From assembly GCA_038741495.1 (NCBI GenBank), contig JAVYKX010000001.1, forward strand, positions 118,918-182,917: a stretch of DNA of 64,000 bases, read 5' to 3'. Made by a program: the position numbers and the translations under genes. The DNA comes from Thermofilum sp. (GTDB lineage Archaea > Thermoproteota > Thermoprotei > Thermofilales > Thermofilaceae). Below the pieces are notes generated by a model. That model saw only the letters and a program-made list of their open reading frames with translations, ran no database searches and was not told the DNA's origin. Of the stretch, positions 1 to 64,000 are shown one piece after another. The stretch's first letter is position 1; each line of letters starts with the position of its first letter.

Positions 1-9
1 TTAAGGTGG

Positions 10-195
10 GTGGTTAGCTTGGAGAGGATAGTCGAGGATCTCAAGAGGAGGTTGGAGCACCTCGAAGCTGTGAAGCTGCTTGCCGAGCTGCTGGTTTACT
101 CGGTGCTGGGAGCGCTCTTCCTTCTACTCCTTTTCTCGCTGCTTGCGTCGGTGGGCTCTTTCGCGGAGCGGGTTCTGGGCCAGCTGAAGCCTTAA
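10..195 (+). CDS. small membrane protein, hypothetical
   Basis: A 61-residue product with a charged amphipathic helix at about residues 4-25, possibly a coiled coil, then one hydrophobic membrane span at about residues 26-48 and a short polar tail. The start is GTG at 10; TTG at 19 is an alternative. It is convergent with the pilus/secretion genes that begin 14 nt downstream on the other strand. No family was recognised. The helix-plus-span design would suit an accessory membrane-complex subunit, but that is inference. The short length and window-edge position limit confidence. Confidence 0.45.
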   Translation: MVSLERIVEDLKRRLEHLEAVKLLAELLVYSVLGALFLLLLFSLLASVGSFAERVLGQLKP

Positions 196-209
196 TCCCG
201 CGTGGGCTT

Positions 210-1121
210 CTACAGCTGGGGAGTGAGGAGAGGTTCTAGGAAGATTTCCTGCACGTTGAAGTAGGCTACGACGGCGAGCGTCATTACCATGGTGTGGGTA
301 ACACCCGCTTTCACAGTTCCTCTGCTGATCTTCCCGGAGATGAGGCCGCCGAAGATTGCCTGCATGTAAGCGGCGATGAAGAATCCGGCTTTGAAGAGGT
401 GGGGTGGGGGTGGGGTCACGAGGCCTGGTGCTCTCAGAGTGTAGAGGGGTCCCACGAATACGGATGTGATTATCGTCGCCGTGATGAGGAATACGGCGAG
501 AGCTATGTAAGTCACCCAGATGTAGGTGGCCATTCGGGCCTTCCTTTCCTCCTCGTAGCCCCTCAGCATGCCGTACATCTCGGCAGCCGCTCCGAGCACG
601 TCAGCCACCCTGCCCCCCGACTCGTAGGCTGCAGCTAGCAGGCTGGCCGCCCTCCTGAACACGGGTACAGGAACCCTCTCCGCAGCGCGGCTTAAAGCCT
701 CCCTAAAGGGTACCCCCAGGGAAAGCATGGCGAGGATGTTCTGAACCTCGCTTCTTAAAGGGTCTCCGGCAGCCTCCGCCGATGTGGCGAGCGCCCTATC
801 GAGGGTCATGCCTGCTCTCACCCCGTCGGCCACCCCCTTGAAGAAGGTGGGCAGCTGCTTAGCTAGCGCGTCGGTGTAACGCGAGTTGTTCCAGTACACG
901 TAAGCTAGGGGTGCTAGCGCGAGCGGTAGCGCGAACCCGAGCAGGGTGTAAAGGGGGAGCGACCAGGGCAGCGCTAACCCTTCCAGGAGCTCCGCTTGCT
1001 CCACCGTGTTCTCCAGGCTACCCCACGCCGCGGCCAGTACAGCTAGCGGGGAGGAGCCGAGGGTTAGGGATAGCGCTGCTAGAAGGAGTGCAGTCCTACC
1101 CTTCACCGGGATGTAACCCAT
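210..1121 (-). CDS. type II/IV secretion system F-family membrane protein (TadC/ArlJ-like)
   Basis: This is a polytopic platform protein of type IV-pilus-like machines, predicted to anchor the assembly ATPase at the membrane. In its 303 residues, hydrophobic N-terminal segments (about 10-32 and 55-76) precede a cytosolic helical domain at about 80-200 typical of T2SSF proteins. Three further membrane spans follow (about 203-230, 243-265 and 273-293). It is the last gene of a three-gene operon, 4 nt after the second T2SSF gene. One T2SSF domain per protein resembles bacterial TadB/TadC rather than the two-domain archaeal ArlJ. No pilin or prepilin peptidase is visible here, so the exported substrate is unknown. 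Confidence 0.8.
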   Translation of the reverse strand: MGYIPVKGRTALLLAALSLTLGSSPLAVLAAAWGSLENTVEQAELLEGLALPWSLPLYTLLGFALPLALAPLAYVYWNNSRYTDALAKQLPTFFKGVADGVRAGMTLDRALATSAEAAGDPLRSEVQNILAMLSLGVPFREALSRAAERVPVPVFRRAASLLAAAYESGGRVADVLGAAAEMYGMLRGYEEERKARMATYIWVTYIALAVFLITATIITSVFVGPLYTLRAPGLVTPPPPHLFKAGFFIAAYMQAIFGGLISGKISRGTVKAGVTHTMVMTLAVVAYFNVQEIFLEPLLTPQL

Positions 1122-1125
1122 AGCG

Positions 1126-1989
1126 CTACACCCTGGAGAGAACCGAGTCCAGGATAACGAGAACTGCTGCTGCCGAGAAGGGTACCAGGATGAGGACGAT
1201 GACCGCGATGAGCAGGTTTGCCGGGAGCCCGGCTACGGAGCCCCCGAGCATGCCGATTATGGAGAGCATCACGATGAACATCAGTGGTGCGGCGACGATT
1301 AGCGCGGTGTACATCTCCGCAACCGTGGCTAAAGCGTTCACCACACTGCTGAGCTCTGCCCTCCTCATCTCGAGTAGCCTCTGCGCAGTGAATGATACGT
1401 ACTCGTAGAGGCTCCTCCCGGTTATGTAGGCGTCCCGCAGCCCTGAGAAGAAGAGCGCGAGCGCGGCTGAAGGGCTCCTCGCCGCTCCCCGCTTGATCGC
1501 TGTGGGTACGTCGAGGCCGAGGAGCTCCACGTCTGTGAGGAAGAGGTCGAGCTCTCTCCGGAGCTCCTTGCTCTCCTCTAGGTCGCGTACCTCCCTGATG
1601 ATCTCGGTGAGCGTGCTGCCTGAAGAGGCGAGCACGGCGAAGTGTGCAAGCGCGTGCGGGAGCCTGGCGGTGATGGTCCAGCCGCGGGAGTGCCTCCGGT
1701 AGACCGGGTAGTAGAGGCAGCCCATCGTGAACAGCAGCGTGTAGATCACCAGGATGATGAGTGTGAGTAGCGCGGAAACGGGGGCTGGGTAGCCGAGCAC
1801 TGAAGAGTGAAAAGCCATAGATAAGGCAGCAACAGCTGGCGTGGAGGCAGCGAAAGCTAACCCCCATTTACCTAGGTACTCTTCGAAAGTCTCGCTGAAC
1901 CCAGCGGTGCAGTAAATCTCCCTGAAGGGCTTAATCCTCTCTCCCGCAAGCTTCGAAAGCTGCTGTCCAACCAGGTAGGGTAGGCTCAC
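1126..1989 (-). CDS. type II/IV secretion system F-family membrane protein (TadB-like)
   Basis: This is the second platform protein of the pilus/secretion operon, at 287 residues. A cytosolic helical N-terminus is followed by two spans at about 44-97, a central soluble T2SSF-like domain at about 105-215, and two C-terminal spans at about 219-243 and 258-283. The GTG start at 1989 overlaps the stop of the upstream ATPase gene by four bases (GTGA), implying translational coupling. With its neighbour it probably forms a TadB/TadC-like heteromeric platform. Assignment rests on topology and operon context more than on short motifs. Confidence 0.75.
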   Translation of the reverse strand: MSLPYLVGQQLSKLAGERIKPFREIYCTAGFSETFEEYLGKWGLAFAASTPAVAALSMAFHSSVLGYPAPVSALLTLIILVIYTLLFTMGCLYYPVYRRHSRGWTITARLPHALAHFAVLASSGSTLTEIIREVRDLEESKELRRELDLFLTDVELLGLDVPTAIKRGAARSPSAALALFFSGLRDAYITGRSLYEYVSFTAQRLLEMRRAELSSVVNALATVAEMYTALIVAAPLMFIVMLSIIGMLGGSVAGLPANLLIAVIVLILVPFSAAAVLVILDSVLSRV

Positions 1990-3482
1990 AGAACGTACAC
2001 CCCCCTCTCCACAGCGGCGTACACTGCTGAAGGTCTGAGGGCGAAATCTCGGACGAGCTTGCTAACCCTCCTGAAGTCCGTCACCTGTCTCTCAACGAGC
2101 CAGTCGAGAACGAACTTCCTGTGCTCAAGCTCTTCTCTGAGCGCGCTCAGCGGCAGCCCCTCCTCAGAAGCTATCTTCTGGAGGAGAACGCTATCCCCTA
2201 CCACCTCCAACCTGTCCTTGAGCTGGTTGTACTTAAAGACGGTGTTCCACTCAAACTTCTCGCCACTTACCGCTTCAACCACCTCCACGACTCTGCGGAA
2301 CACGCGCTCCCCGGAGAAGAACTTCCTGACGGTGATGTACACGTTCATCAGCGGGATGAGGGGAGGAGGCACGTTCATGGGCTCTGAAGTAAGCCTCTTC
2401 ACCGCGTAGTCCACGTTCTCCGCGTGCAGAGTGCACATGCCCGCGTGCCCCGTCGCGATAGCCTGGAACAGGGTGAACGCCTCCTCGCCCCTCACCTCCC
2501 CGACGATCACGTAGTCTGGCCGCATCCGCAGAGCCGACTTGAGAAGGTCGAAGAGCGTGACATCCCTCGTCCAGGGATCTCTGGAGGGCCGGACGACGAG
2601 CGGCGCCCAGTTCTCGTGAGGCAAGTTCAGCTCCGGCGTCTCCTCGATACTCACAATCTTCGCGTCCGGCCTGATGAACGTGGCAACAGCGTTCAGGAGA
2701 GTTGTCTTCCCGCTCGCCGTCGCGCCGACAATCATCAAGCTCTTCTTCCTCTCGATGAGGAGCCACAGGTAGGCAGCCAGCTCGGTTGTCAGCGTGCCGA
2801 GCCTCACCAGGTCAACAATGGAGAAGGGAACCTCCCTGAATTTCCTGATCGTGAACGTCCCCCCTCGCCTCGAGATCTCTGAGAGCGTCGCGTGCAACCT
2901 ATAACCCTCGGGAAGCGCGCCCTCCGCGATCGGCTGCGCCACGGAAATGTGCCTTCCCGCCTTGTGGGCAAGCCTCTCGATAGCTTTCTCAAGCTCCTCA
3001 GGGTCTTCGAAGACGATGTTCGTGGGCAGCGACTCAAACTGGCTGTGCCACACGAAGACCGGTAGGCCTACACCATCGCACGAGATATCCTCGATGTTGG
3101 GATCTCTGAGCGGAACCTCCAGCTTCCCGTAGCCGAGCATATCCCTGCGAACGTAGTAGAATATCTTGTCGAAGGCCTCCGGCGCGACGGGCAGCTTGCG
3201 CTTCTTTATGATGCTCTCCACCCTCCTCCTCAGGACCTCCTCTGGGCTCTTCTTCTTCAGCTCATCGTAGAGGGGTCTCTGCTCCTCCAGCAAAACTCTC
3301 TTAATCTCGCCGATTACTTTCTCATCGGTTTGCGTCAGGACAGGTTCTAAAGCTCTGTAGAGCATTCGCCCCGTCTTCACGTCTCTCGTGATTGCTACGT
3401 GAGCGAAAGGCGGTACAACCTCGTATAACGCTATTATAACTTCCCCTGGAGGTATTAACCCGCCTGGCCCGCTAGCAGACAA
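1986..3482 (-). CDS. type II/IV secretion ATPase (TadA/GspE/VirB11 family)
   Basis: A hexameric-type cytosolic ATPase that would power pilus assembly or secretion. A Walker A motif GATASGKTT lies at about residues 252-260 and a Walker B region IVGEVRGEEA at about 325-335. Between them lies an Asp-box-like SIEETPEL, and afterwards an AIATGHAG segment resembling the His box. The N-terminal 120 residues are the usual adaptor region. The 498 residues are normal for archaeal TadA-like ATPases. The start is TTG at 3482, with GGAGG about 13 nt upstream. It is first in an operon with two T2SSF genes, and its promoter region carries an inverted repeat at 3498-3515. The archaellum ATPase ArlI is less likely because no arl genes flank it. 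Confidence 0.9.
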   Translation of the reverse strand: MSASGPGGLIPPGEVIIALYEVVPPFAHVAITRDVKTGRMLYRALEPVLTQTDEKVIGEIKRVLLEEQRPLYDELKKKSPEEVLRRRVESIIKKRKLPVAPEAFDKIFYYVRRDMLGYGKLEVPLRDPNIEDISCDGVGLPVFVWHSQFESLPTNIVFEDPEELEKAIERLAHKAGRHISVAQPIAEGALPEGYRLHATLSEISRRGGTFTIRKFREVPFSIVDLVRLGTLTTELAAYLWLLIERKKSLMIVGATASGKTTLLNAVATFIRPDAKIVSIEETPELNLPHENWAPLVVRPSRDPWTRDVTLFDLLKSALRMRPDYVIVGEVRGEEAFTLFQAIATGHAGMCTLHAENVDYAVKRLTSEPMNVPPPLIPLMNVYITVRKFFSGERVFRRVVEVVEAVSGEKFEWNTVFKYNQLKDRLEVVGDSVLLQKIASEEGLPLSALREELEHRKFVLDWLVERQVTDFRRVSKLVRDFALRPSAVYAAVERGVYVL

Positions 3483-60647: not shown

Positions 60648-61016
60648 TTAAACTAGGCTGCTTACCTTCTTTTTAATATCTCTGAGCGTGTATAGGAGCA
60701 CTCCTAGCCTCGTATCTCTGCCGAAAAGGACGGCTAGGTACCCCATCTCCCCGAGCTTGATATAGATGATTCCTGAGCCATCGGGGGCATTGACAGTGAT
60801 CCAGTCTGCTTCTCCCTTGCCCAGCTCAACGCTTGCACGGTTACCCACCTCAGCTAGCACGGCAGTTAAGGCGGCTATCTTCTCCTCCAGATCCTTATCG
60901 GTCAAACTGCTCAGTAGCGGTAATCCATCGCTTGTCGAGACCACGAAACCTTCGACACCCCCCACTCTCGTTACAGGCTCGATTAACTTCCTCACACTTT
61001 CCAAGTTTAGGCTCAT
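60648..61016 (-). CDS. roadblock/LC7-domain protein
   Basis: A small soluble protein with one roadblock/LC7 fold: a helix, then GVEGFVVSTSDGLPLLSS as the first strands, a long central helix (KIAALTAVLAEVG) and strands ending LGEMGYLAVLFG. Such proteins regulate small GTPases, as MglB does MglA. The ATG at 61016 has GGAGGTGA about seven bases upstream, with a TATA-like box at 61051-61060, so unlike many genes here it has a leader and SD site. It follows the GTPase gene by 61 nt. Confidence 0.8.
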   Translation of the reverse strand: MSLNLESVRKLIEPVTRVGGVEGFVVSTSDGLPLLSSLTDKDLEEKIAALTAVLAEVGNRASVELGKGEADWITVNAPDGSGIIYIKLGEMGYLAVLFGRDTRLGVLLYTLRDIKKKVSSLV

Positions 61017-61050
61017 CACCCTTCACCTCCTACCTCATGCCTCTTAAATT

Positions 61051-61060
61051 AGTATATATT
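61051..61060 (-). promoter_or_regulatory. TATA box of the last roadblock gene
   Basis: Minus-strand AATATATACT lies about 40 nt upstream of ATG 61016, predicting a roughly 12-nt leader that contains the GGAGGTGA ribosome site. Confidence 0.45.
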
Positions 61061-61077
61061 GCTTTCAAACCTCTCCC

Positions 61078-61605
61078 TCACTCTTCCGCTATTAGCCGGA
61101 TGAGCCGCCTGAGCACGGCCATCGCAGACTCCTTATCGTAAGCGGTAAGAGGCATAACAATCGACGAGTTAGCTCTGAAGATCTCCGCGGCTTTATGAGG
61201 AGGAACCGCTCCTTTCACATCCTGCTTGTTCACAGCTATGACGTGGGGGTACTCGCCCAGGGACTTCATGTACTCGTAGAGCGTCCTCCCCCTTATAACC
61301 TCCACAGGCGAGCTGCCGTCTACTATAAACACGTAGCCGTGCATTCCTGTGGAGAGAATTCTCCACATGAACTGAAGCCTGGTTTGGCCCGGCGTACCGA
61401 AGAGGTAAATCTCGTAACCATCCAGCACGAGTTTCCCGTAGTCGAAGGCTACCGTCGTGTACTGCTTTGTCTGAGCCTCGCGGGGATTGGAGACAGGGAC
61501 CTCGGTCTGAAGCACATACTGCGAGACTGTCTTAACGAAAGTCGTTTTTCCGCTAGCGTAGGGCCCGCTCACTAGTATCTTTAGGTAGCCTCTGGGGGCC
61601 AGCAT
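61078..61605 (-). CDS. small Ras-like GTPase (COG2229; MglA/CvnD-like)
   Basis: 175 residues. G1 is SGPYASGKTT at about 12-21, switch I Thr is in YTTVAFDYG, G3 is FGTPGQTR (the family form in place of DTAGQ), G4 is AVNKQD, and G5 is near PLTAYDKES. These place it with bacterial and archaeal COG2229 GTPases, which pair with roadblock proteins. ATG 61605 overlaps the upstream roadblock gene by 53 nt. It has no lipidation signal, so membrane recruitment would depend on its partners. Confidence 0.88.
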   Translation of the reverse strand: MLAPRGYLKILVSGPYASGKTTFVKTVSQYVLQTEVPVSNPREAQTKQYTTVAFDYGKLVLDGYEIYLFGTPGQTRLQFMWRILSTGMHGYVFIVDGSSPVEVIRGRTLYEYMKSLGEYPHVIAVNKQDVKGAVPPHKAAEIFRANSSIVMPLTAYDKESAMAVLRRLIRLIAEE

Positions 61606-61984
61606 AACCTACACCCGCGGTTTTCACAACATCGTCTTCGTACTTCCTGAGCACCAGGTGTATGAGGCCCAGGTTAGGCCTTGGTACAGTTGATAGAGCG
61701 ATGAACGCTCCGTCGACAGCGGATATCACTACATGCTCGCCGTTCTCAAACTCTACATCAACCCTCCTCACCTTCGAGCCGAAGATATCTCCCAGAGCGT
61801 CCAGTGAACCTAGCGCTGCAGCCGAAGCTACAGCCAGGAATTCGGCTTGCGCCTGCTCGGCGGCGAGGAAGTCTTGCGGTATGCCATCGCGCCACGCGTA
61901 GACGATTGTTGTGATCATTCTATGCGTCTCTTCGAGGATCTTGTTCAGCAGGCTCTTTAAGCTCCCTGGATTGCTAGCGGCCAT
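61553..61984 (-). CDS. roadblock/LC7-like protein
   Basis: 143 residues from ATG 61984; a longer frame would overlap the upstream gene further. A helical N-terminus is followed by a fold of strands and a central helix (FLAVASAAALGSLDALGDIFG), then DVEFENGEHVVISAVDGAFIALST, matching roadblock-like topology. The C-terminal about 18 residues are read from the same bases as the GTPase start in another frame. Position between the membrane protein and GTPase suggests it is the GTPase regulator. Confidence 0.7.
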   Translation of the reverse strand: MAASNPGSLKSLLNKILEETHRMITTIVYAWRDGIPQDFLAAEQAQAEFLAVASAAALGSLDALGDIFGSKVRRVDVEFENGEHVVISAVDGAFIALSTVPRPNLGLIHLVLRKYEDDVVKTAGVGYAGPQRLPKDTSERALR

Positions 61985-62717
61985 AGGCGCTCTCACCTTT
62001 AGCTGCAAGCCTCTCGTTAAAGTACCTACTTATTGCTTTCTTGGCTTTACTTACAACCTGCTCCGCTACATCGATACCGTCTCTGAACTCCAAAATGCCG
62101 TAGACCGATATATCTTTCACATCTCCGAGGTAGAATATATCGAACCTGAACTTGCCTTTCACGATTGAGGTAGCTGAGGTGCCGTAAAGCCTAACGATCT
62201 CGAGCAGCCGCGCAGGTTCCTCGCTGCAGCTGCCGTAGCTTTCAACCAGGAATCCCTGCGAAGTTATCACACCTGCGAATTTGACGTCGGGTGCCACGAG
62301 AATCACATCACTGAGCTTAGCTAGCGGCGGCGGCTCTTCCTCGAGAGAGGGCTTGGGTTGGAGAGTAGGGGGAGGTCTAGTCTCAATAGGCCTGGTAAGC
62401 CGTCTTTCCAAAACGGCTGTACGGCCCTCTAAACTCGTAATCTTAGATTCGAGCTGCGTGATCTTCTCCAGCACTGGTGCTATGTTTATCTTACTAATCG
62501 ATTCCTGAATTTCCTTGAATTGATTTGTGAGAATTTCTAAACGCTTATTCACTTCATCATCTCTTTCAGGCTTAATATTCTTAAAAAAGTACCTAATCGA
62601 GTAAAGAAAGCCGACCAGAAGCCCGAGAGAGATGCTGAAATTTATCAAGAGCAGCGTGACGTAAGCAGATTCTGATATCTGCCCTACTGCCAGAAAGCGG
62701 CCAGCTACCTCGAGCAT
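61974..62717 (-). CDS. membrane-anchored coiled-coil protein with roadblock-like C-terminal domain
   Basis: 247 residues. One N-terminal span at about 17-45 precedes a coiled coil of about 60 residues (NKRLEILTNQFKEIQESI through LESKITSLEGRTAVLERRL). A Pro-rich linker (TRPPPTLQPKPSLEEEPPP) leads to a C-terminal domain of about 100 residues resembling roadblock/LC7, with LVAPDVKFAGVITSQGFLVES and a central helix. It could hold the GTPase complex at the membrane. An AT-rich box at 62752-62762 may be its promoter. It overlaps the next gene by 11 nt. Confidence 0.7.
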   Translation of the reverse strand: MLEVAGRFLAVGQISESAYVTLLLINFSISLGLLVGFLYSIRYFFKNIKPERDDEVNKRLEILTNQFKEIQESISKINIAPVLEKITQLESKITSLEGRTAVLERRLTRPIETRPPPTLQPKPSLEEEPPPLAKLSDVILVAPDVKFAGVITSQGFLVESYGSCSEEPARLLEIVRLYGTSATSIVKGKFRFDIFYLGDVKDISVYGILEFRDGIDVAEQVVSKAKKAISRYFNERLAAKGESAYGR

Positions 62718-62765
62718 TACTTTCTCTTCAGTGATTTTTCCACATTATCCTAATATTTTTAATCG

Positions 62766-63965
62766 CTAGAAATGCCTGAAGGGGGTGCGCCTGAACCCTA
62801 TAGTAGGGTAGAGCGAGGTTATCTCTTCGATGAGAACTGCAACCTCTGGCGTGAACTTCGGCGATGCTTCAGAGATTGCTTTCTCGAAGGCGCGTTTAGC
62901 TGGAGAGCCTCCTGCTATTAGCTTGTCAGCTTTCCCAGCTATCTCGAGGAGCGTTGTCCTGTCGAGGTACTTTAACACGTTGAGGAACTCGGAGTCCAGG
63001 CTTTCGATAGCTTCCTGCGGGTAGCCTGAGAGTCTTGAGAGGAGGCTAACAGCCTCTTCCAGGGAAAGTGGAGGGATGTAGAAAACGAGAGTGTTCTCAG
63101 GGCTGAGCCCCTGCGGGATGGCTCCGTGCTCGTGGAAAAGAACTATTTTCGCGGCGCATTTGCCAACGCTTAGGATGCGCGTCCGGAGAGCTTGCTCGTC
63201 CTCCAGAGAGAGTCCCAGTAGCAGCAAGTAGCTGTACTTGCCTTTAAGGCACTCCTCTAGCACTAGAGACGTGTATGGTTTGAGATCTTCGAATAAGAGG
63301 TCTTCCGCGCTCTTCCTCTTCTCCCTGGGGGGAGGTGTTTTCACGCTTAAGCTCAAGCGGCGCGGCTGGTGCCAACCCGGGGTAGCTGCAAGCGATGCTA
63401 GCCCCGAAGCTGCGGCTACCGTGAGAACTTGTCTACCCAGCTCGAGCAGCGGTGTGTTCGCGCCGTAAAGTGCGGGAACGCTGAGAAGAAGAGGTGCGGC
63501 GATAGAAGAGCGTACTCTGCCTACCTCCTCCGCGAGGAGAGCTGACAGAAGCGCTGACGCGGCTAGCATCGTATAGCTTGCTGCCATGTAGGGGTCTTTC
63601 AGGAGCTTCTCCAGAAGTGCTAGGTAGAACTGACCCACGTTAACTACATCGAAGGGTGTTTTATCCAGTAGTGCAGCTAAACCACCGGGGACTCTGACCA
63701 AGCTGCATAGCCAGGTATCGCCAGGCAGCAGGAAACCCGACAAGACGAATACTTGTGATGAGAACACTAGTCCCGTCGCCGCTGCAGCGCGCGGTTCCTC
63801 TGCCGATGAGAGAGCGTAGAGGAGTCCGAGCAGCGCTGCTGCGTAACCGCCGCTTACGAGCATGAACACTGAGAGCAGCTGTAGGAATAGAGCCGAGTGC
63901 CAGCTTTGTAACCCCTTGTAAACCACCAGGAGGAGCACGGGAGTGAACAGGAGCAGCATTTTCAA
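62766..63965 (-). CDS. multi-span membrane protein with cytosolic domain, possibly 5'-truncated
   Basis: At least 399 residues: about seven N-terminal hydrophobic segments, then a soluble C-terminal region of about 190 residues starting near KTPPPREKRKS. The soluble part has a strand-helix core (YLLLLGLSLEDEQALR, KIVLFHEHGAIPQG) and a helical tail resembling an AAA+ lid without its P-loop. The frame stays open from 63965 to the window edge without a stop, so the true start may lie outside. It ends 48 nt before the coiled-coil gene in the same direction and may belong to the GTPase system. Confidence 0.6.
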   Translation of the reverse strand: MKMLLLFTPVLLLVVYKGLQSWHSALFLQLLSVFMLVSGGYAAALLGLLYALSSAEEPRAAAATGLVFSSQVFVLSGFLLPGDTWLCSLVRVPGGLAALLDKTPFDVVNVGQFYLALLEKLLKDPYMAASYTMLAASALLSALLAEEVGRVRSSIAAPLLLSVPALYGANTPLLELGRQVLTVAAASGLASLAATPGWHQPRRLSLSVKTPPPREKRKSAEDLLFEDLKPYTSLVLEECLKGKYSYLLLLGLSLEDEQALRTRILSVGKCAAKIVLFHEHGAIPQGLSPENTLVFYIPPLSLEEAVSLLSRLSGYPQEAIESLDSEFLNVLKYLDRTTLLEIAGKADKLIAGGSPAKRAFEKAISEASPKFTPEVAVLIEEITSLYPTIGFRRTPFRHF

Positions 63966-64000
63966 GCCCCCGCCCAGGTACAGGCTTGCGCCGATGACAA

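Follow-up and report, generated by a model that had tools for sequence, protein, structure and literature searches.

A conserved triad of MglA-type GTPase, soluble roadblock protein and predicted membrane-tethered roadblock in Thermofilum, with relatives beside archaeal type IV pilus genes

We analysed a window of 64,000 nucleotides from Thermofilum sp. (assembly GCA_038741495.1, contig JAVYKX010000001.1, positions 118,918 to 182,917; G000:C1:118918-182917 in our numbering), in which five minus-strand open reading frames (ORFs), in the order E-D-C-B-A, encode a polytopic membrane protein (E), a membrane-anchored protein with a predicted roadblock domain (D), a soluble roadblock protein (C), an MglA/COG2229-type small GTPase (B) and a further soluble roadblock protein (A). 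The core of this cluster is the triad D-C-B, that is, tethered roadblock, soluble roadblock and GTPase, and in other families of the same phylum the triad lies beside genes of the type IV pilus (T4P). We lean towards reading the cluster as a membrane-tethered MglA-type GTPase switch that acts on a TadA/TadC-type pilus machine, the D-C-B set probably controlling when or where surface pili are built. The switching and placement of archaeal type IV pili are largely open, and D-C-B is a named, testable candidate regulator whose tie to one TadA/TadC subfamily spans several families.

All five ORFs were found in the window (Table 1), and the same-strand arrangement described in an initial annotation of this DNA, with overlaps of 11 nt between D and C (61974-61984) and 53 nt between C and B (61553-61605), was recovered except for the start of E. 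The cluster is not a chance arrangement, because six further genomes of the genus have E-D-C-B-A and D-C-B is found across families. All seven genomes examined in genus g1 carry E-D-C-B-A (the contig of G002 ends in B), and every Thermofilaceae genome that has a close B homologue, 11 in all (genera g1, g2, g3 and g6), carries D-C-B; the Thermofilaceae genera g4 and g7 have instead a diverged B with a roadblock protein and a small single-transmembrane (single-TM) protein. The initial annotation would have been refuted by loss of the gene order in relatives or by a lack of roadblock folds in C and D, and neither was observed. G018, which belongs to another family of the same order, has two copies of the triad, and f2 genomes (L070, L072) hold the same parts in altered order, with three tandem roadblock genes followed by B and then D. 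Scanning 300 genomes of the phylum, we also found B homologues in two further families, f23 and f40, where in most loci a roadblock gene stands directly upstream of B and a TM-roadblock protein upstream of that; almost every f23 locus sampled has D-C-B, as do 7 of 8 f40 loci. A match to D in Vulcanisaeta (L073-L075) was judged spurious: it has no TM segment and is not beside the roadblock-GTPase pair.

Table 1. Features of the E-D-C-B-A cluster in the window
Feature	Position	Strand	Evidence
A: soluble roadblock/LC7 protein, 123 aa	60648..61019	-	PF03259 E=6e-11; orthologues beside B in genus g1
B: MglA/COG2229-type small GTPase, 175 aa	61078..61605	-	motifs; best PDB match MglA 3t12
C: soluble roadblock protein, 143 aa	61553..61984	-	PF03259 in 11/11 orthologues; 9jue E=0.007
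D: membrane-tethered protein, predicted roadblock, 247 aa	61974..62717	-	AlphaFold2 model, Foldseek, coiled-coil PDB matches
D residues 135-243: predicted roadblock domain (a-b-b-a-b-b-b-a)	61989..62315	-	DSSP of model; homologue HMM
E: polytopic membrane protein with apparently degenerate AAA+-like domain	62766..64000, on to 64223 outside window	-	
E C-terminal cytosolic domain, AAA+-like, without Walker A	62766..63347	-	AlphaFold2, fold search, profile

B is an MglA/COG2229-type GTPase, in agreement with its first description from the motifs FGTPGQ and NKQD. It consists of a single G domain, has no membrane segment and carries the P-loop GPYASGKTT, FGTPGQ as G3 and NKQD as G4. The usual G3 aspartate is absent, FGTPGQ replacing DxxGQ, and the missing conserved G3 aspartate is a criterion for the MglA family (PMC4316618). 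The best PDB match of the B-family profile is MglA of Thermus thermophilus, 3t12 (E=1e-16). About 30 residues separate the P-loop lysine from the G2 threonine in B and 29 do so in 3t12, an insertion as in bacterial-type MglA; in Ras this distance is 19 residues. In a tree, B clusters with homologues from Aquificota, Chloroflexota and other bacterial COG2229-like proteins, apart from the Rab-like GTPases, a position compatible with Group 5 of Wuichet in a tree that holds no labelled Group 4 or Group 5 references. B has no C-terminal roadblock domain of the sort found in Rag GTPases.

Both A and C are roadblock proteins. For A, the match to PF03259 is above the cut-off; its ORF opens with GTG-ATG, the ATG at 61016 being as good a start as the GTG at 61019, and its orthologues (60-82% identical) adjoin B in genus g1 and in g3 have moved beside the Xaa-Pro peptidase gene. 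The roadblock-like label given earlier to C likewise holds: the window copy alone matches PF03259 weakly (E=0.016), the family is matched by every one of 11 orthologues (best 1.8e-5), and the C profile gives a weak match to an Asgard roadblock structure, 9jue.

D was described at the outset as a membrane-anchored coiled coil ending in a roadblock-like domain, and this layout is borne out by an N-terminal TM helix, a coiled coil (residues 50-112 match coiled-coil PDB entries), a proline-rich linker and a C-terminal domain with a predicted roadblock fold. In the sequence profile of the window copy the roadblock is not visible (profile-profile probability 0.1-0.2 against C or A, and a weak 11% against all roadblocks), and after profile comparison had failed the identity of the domain was settled by structure prediction together with distant homologues. 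The AlphaFold2 model of the domain has a predicted local distance difference test (pLDDT) score of about 90 and runs helix-strand-strand-helix-three strands-helix according to DSSP. In a Foldseek search all 50 matches listed were roadblock-fold proteins, among them MglB, MglC, LAMTOR/Ragulator, Streptomyces and Asgard roadblocks and a Rag-like GTPase carrying a roadblock domain. Distant D homologues in G018 match the roadblock hidden Markov model (HMM) with E-values of 4e-8 and 1e-6, and several f23 copies of D do so at 1e-5 to 1e-4.

The link to pili comes from the neighbourhoods of the triad. Of the 12 genomes of family f23 that were read, 11 have a gene for a TadA ATPase and/or a TadC platform protein next to the triad, and several of these loci also encode pilins; examples of the arrangement are TadC-B-C-D-TadA (L119) and D-C-B, TadA, D-C, TadC, pilin (L112); in the twelfth genome (L114) the triad is followed by three pilin-like single-TM proteins. 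Since f23 genomes encode about 1-3 strong T4P ATPases each, we estimate the chance of TadA/TadC adjacency at about 3% per locus. Within the order to which Thermofilum belongs, TadA/TadC genes stand beside a roadblock-B-D cluster in G025 and beside a GTPase-roadblock cluster in G016, and pilin-like genes are neighbours in G018 and G022. Pfam has no pilin match for the single-TM proteins of L071, hence the label pilin-like only. In a TadA tree, all 13 GTPase-linked copies fall within one clade of 19, and none of the 13 copies outside that clade is linked. Thermofilum itself has a member of the linked clade, the TadA at C2:184857, which groups with the linked TadAs of G016 and G025 in a subclade with support of 98/98. 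Two arrangements in f23 suggest docking at the pilus base by the roadblock pair itself: some loci (L112, L113) have an additional D-C pair next to TadC that lacks a GTPase gene of its own, and in G089 and G103 a roadblock gene lies beside TadC and no MglA was found. By a hand count, B co-occurs with the linked TadC subfamily in 4 of 6 high-scoring families vs about 3 of 54 others, a suggestive figure that we do not rely on, its 800-bit cut having been picked after seeing the data and its model built from linked copies.

Further features of the f23 pilus loci were observed. An uncharacterised protein of about 180-260 aa, with no Pfam match above cut-off, is encoded there with TadA and another roadblock gene (L119:11685-12275, L109:4051-4650, L123:8887-9666). 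In three f23 genomes the TadA ORF reaches about 1,090 aa (L112:2129-5416, L123:4086-7364, L125:1242-4499), some 450 aa above its relatives; its T2SSE match stops at profile position 232, and the extra length is an in-frame insertion, perhaps an intein. The window also holds a Tad/type IV pilus-like locus of its own at 210-3482 on the minus strand, with a TadA gene (1986-3482; PF00437, E=8.5e-35) and two short TadC-like membrane genes (210-1121 and 1126-1989). This locus (1-3482) was considered as partner of the triad and rejected, its TadA falling outside the GTPase-linked clade.

Several points weigh against a pilus switch in Thermofilum. The Thermofilum triad is not adjacent to TadA or TadC, its neighbours being ribosomal-protein, aminotransferase and peptidase genes, and the f40 copies are likewise not beside pilus genes; this missing adjacency is the chief gap in the argument. 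The f23 genomes are interrelated (four genera), so their linked loci are not independent, and the support of the linked-TadA clade, 76/96, is not decisive. Moreover, the roadblock identity of the window D depends on a model built from five sequences and on distant homologues.

We hypothesise that D, by means of its TM helix and coiled coil, would hold its roadblock domain on the inner side of the membrane, and would pair with the soluble C and/or A (or C with itself, A serving as a further roadblock) into an MglB-like dimer that binds B, these contacts being predicted from gene and domain anatomy. B would then be recruited to, and reset at, a membrane site, the dimer possibly acting as GTPase-activating protein or as guanine-nucleotide exchange factor, and B in its GTP form may act on the TadA/TadC-type machine, gating or positioning pilus assembly as MglA and SofG do for Myxococcus pili. 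In Thermofilum the likely client would be the TadA/TadC pair on contig C2, and E may be a membrane accessory specific to Thermofilaceae. A bolder version, which we put forward tentatively, is that D-C-B is the widespread, undescribed regulatory core of one archaeal T4P family, in which a TM-tethered roadblock dimer at the TadA/TadC base both loads an MglA GTPase and resets it; in Thermofilum this core would have left the pilus operon and become associated with a polytopic pseudo-AAA protein.

The absence of pilus genes beside the Thermofilum and f40 copies could also be considered in favour of a module for polarity or positioning that is not specific to pili, with the tether as marker of a membrane domain and the GTPase recruiting clients of several kinds, for example in division, secretion or the surface layer. 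Bacterial MglA systems do control several machines (PMC4316618), but linkage to a single T4P ATPase subfamily recurs in f23, G025 and G016, and pilin-like neighbours are present in G018 and G022; these observations speak against it, and we regard a general module of this kind as rather unlikely. A scaffold resembling Ragulator, with D, C and A forming a multi-roadblock platform that senses the state of the cell and docks the GTPase, pili being one of several outputs, is in our judgement improbable, although LAMTOR/Ragulator roadblocks and MglB alike are among the structural matches of the predicted D domain, and roadblock genes do occur beside TadC without a GTPase of their own (L112 and L113 as a second D-C pair, G089 and G103 with no MglA found). 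The likeness to Ragulator (LAMTOR)-Rag lies in a membrane-anchored roadblock scaffold serving small GTPases; here, unlike there, the roadblock protein carries its own anchor, a TM helix, and B lacks the C-terminal roadblock domain of Rag GTPases.

The cluster had first been called conservon-like, and an archaeal conservon in which E as membrane sensor signals through the roadblocks to a CvnD-type GTPase, in a one-way pathway, would fit an operon in which a roadblock and an MglA-family GTPase are combined with a membrane protein that has a cytosolic domain. The comparison with the actinobacterial conservon (CvnA-D) is apt for the CvnB-type roadblock and the COG2229-type, CvnD-like GTPase encoded together with a membrane protein. 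It does not extend to the rest: none of the five proteins is a histidine kinase (CvnA) or of CvnC type, and on these grounds membership was rejected; the domain of E is AAA+-like and not a kinase, the membrane parts being the tethered roadblock and this polytopic protein, and E was found only in Thermofilaceae, whereas D-C-B is widespread. We therefore give a conservon pathway very little credence. Equally hard to credit is a role in protein targeting, with B as the SR-beta-like GTPase that the formal name of COG2229 implies, held by D at the translocon. The cluster does lie about 10 kb from secY and ribosomal-protein genes (a secY-like gene is at L001:17111) and B has a match to SRPRB (E=1.6e-4); yet that match is below the cut-off and weaker than those to Arf and ATP_bind_1, the secY and ribosomal genes are on the opposite strand beyond a divergent peptidase gene, and the loci of relatives show no Sec linkage.

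Among the known systems close to the pilus switch favoured here is MglA/MglB of Myxococcus xanthus and Thermus thermophilus, with SofG, in which an MglA-family GTPase adjoins a roadblock gene and a link to type IV pili exists; G3 without the usual aspartate and the long G1-G2 spacing seen in 3t12 are shared as well. In contrast with those systems, one roadblock here is carried by a TM/coiled-coil tether, the gene that overlaps the GTPase gene encodes another, soluble roadblock, the pilus machine is of the archaeal TadA/TadC kind, and no RomR/Frz-type genes were noticed in the loci read. In Myxococcus, MglA and SofG act on pilus ATPases, and prokaryotic MglA proteins, a few archaeal ones among them, have been classified by Wuichet and Sogaard-Andersen (PMC4316618). 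Makarova and colleagues reported that archaeal type IV pilus loci frequently contain roadblock genes (arCOG02603; Makarova 2016, PMC4858521), but the text of that survey mentions neither an MglA GTPase nor a tethered roadblock, and the window copy, unlike the genes of those loci, is detached from pilus genes. Given this literature, and the D-C-B triad inside pilus loci of f23, from the same phylum, the earlier statement that the module is not tied to known archaeal systems needs revision. The parts are of known kinds, and what appears to be new is the triad with its tethered roadblock, together with the tie of this triad to a single pilus ATPase subfamily; no description of the combination of MglA, roadblock and tether in archaea was found in the literature searched, most subscription papers and preprints being outside its scope. 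A pilus switch of this kind would extend the bacterial connection between MglA and pili to archaea, and would offer a prokaryotic example of a membrane-anchored roadblock platform, an arrangement known from the eukaryotic Ragulator.

E, the outermost gene of the cluster, was correctly recognised as a polytopic protein with a cytosolic domain, but the start assigned to it at 63965 does not hold: the frame continues beyond the window edge, giving a full ORF of 485 aa (L001:6684-8141), with at least 5 TM segments before the C-terminal domain. The AlphaFold2 model of that domain (pLDDT 85) finds its best Foldseek matches in the AAA+ proteins p97, Vps4 and katanin, at modest values (E about 4e-3 to 2.5e-2, probability at most 0.98), and its profile matches a VCP-like ATPase at E=0.026. 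The Walker A motif is absent from E in the window and in the Thermofilum copies, and a syntenic homologue in G011 (L068) keeps an intact Walker A with an AAA_14 match of 3e-5; given this loss, E resembles a membrane protein whose AAA+ domain has decayed. E-D-C-B-A is flanked upstream by the divergent gene of an Xaa-Pro-type peptidase and downstream by a convergent aminotransferase gene. E and D are separated in 7 of 11 Thermofilaceae genomes by a gene for a HIT/GalT-like protein about 400 aa long (L060:3569-4762, L065:3419-4636 and their syntenic counterparts); the window genome has no such gene there.

A second small-GTPase operon is found elsewhere in the same genome (L100:8134-11337, region G000:C1:306136), encoding first a Rab-like GTPase, then a CPxCG zinc protein and two conserved proteins of 278 and 363 aa. 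This operon is conserved across Thermofilaceae and adjoins a roadblock gene in G016, G009 and G012, and its Rab-like gene in L100 is probably the one reported for T. pendens (PMC4915359).

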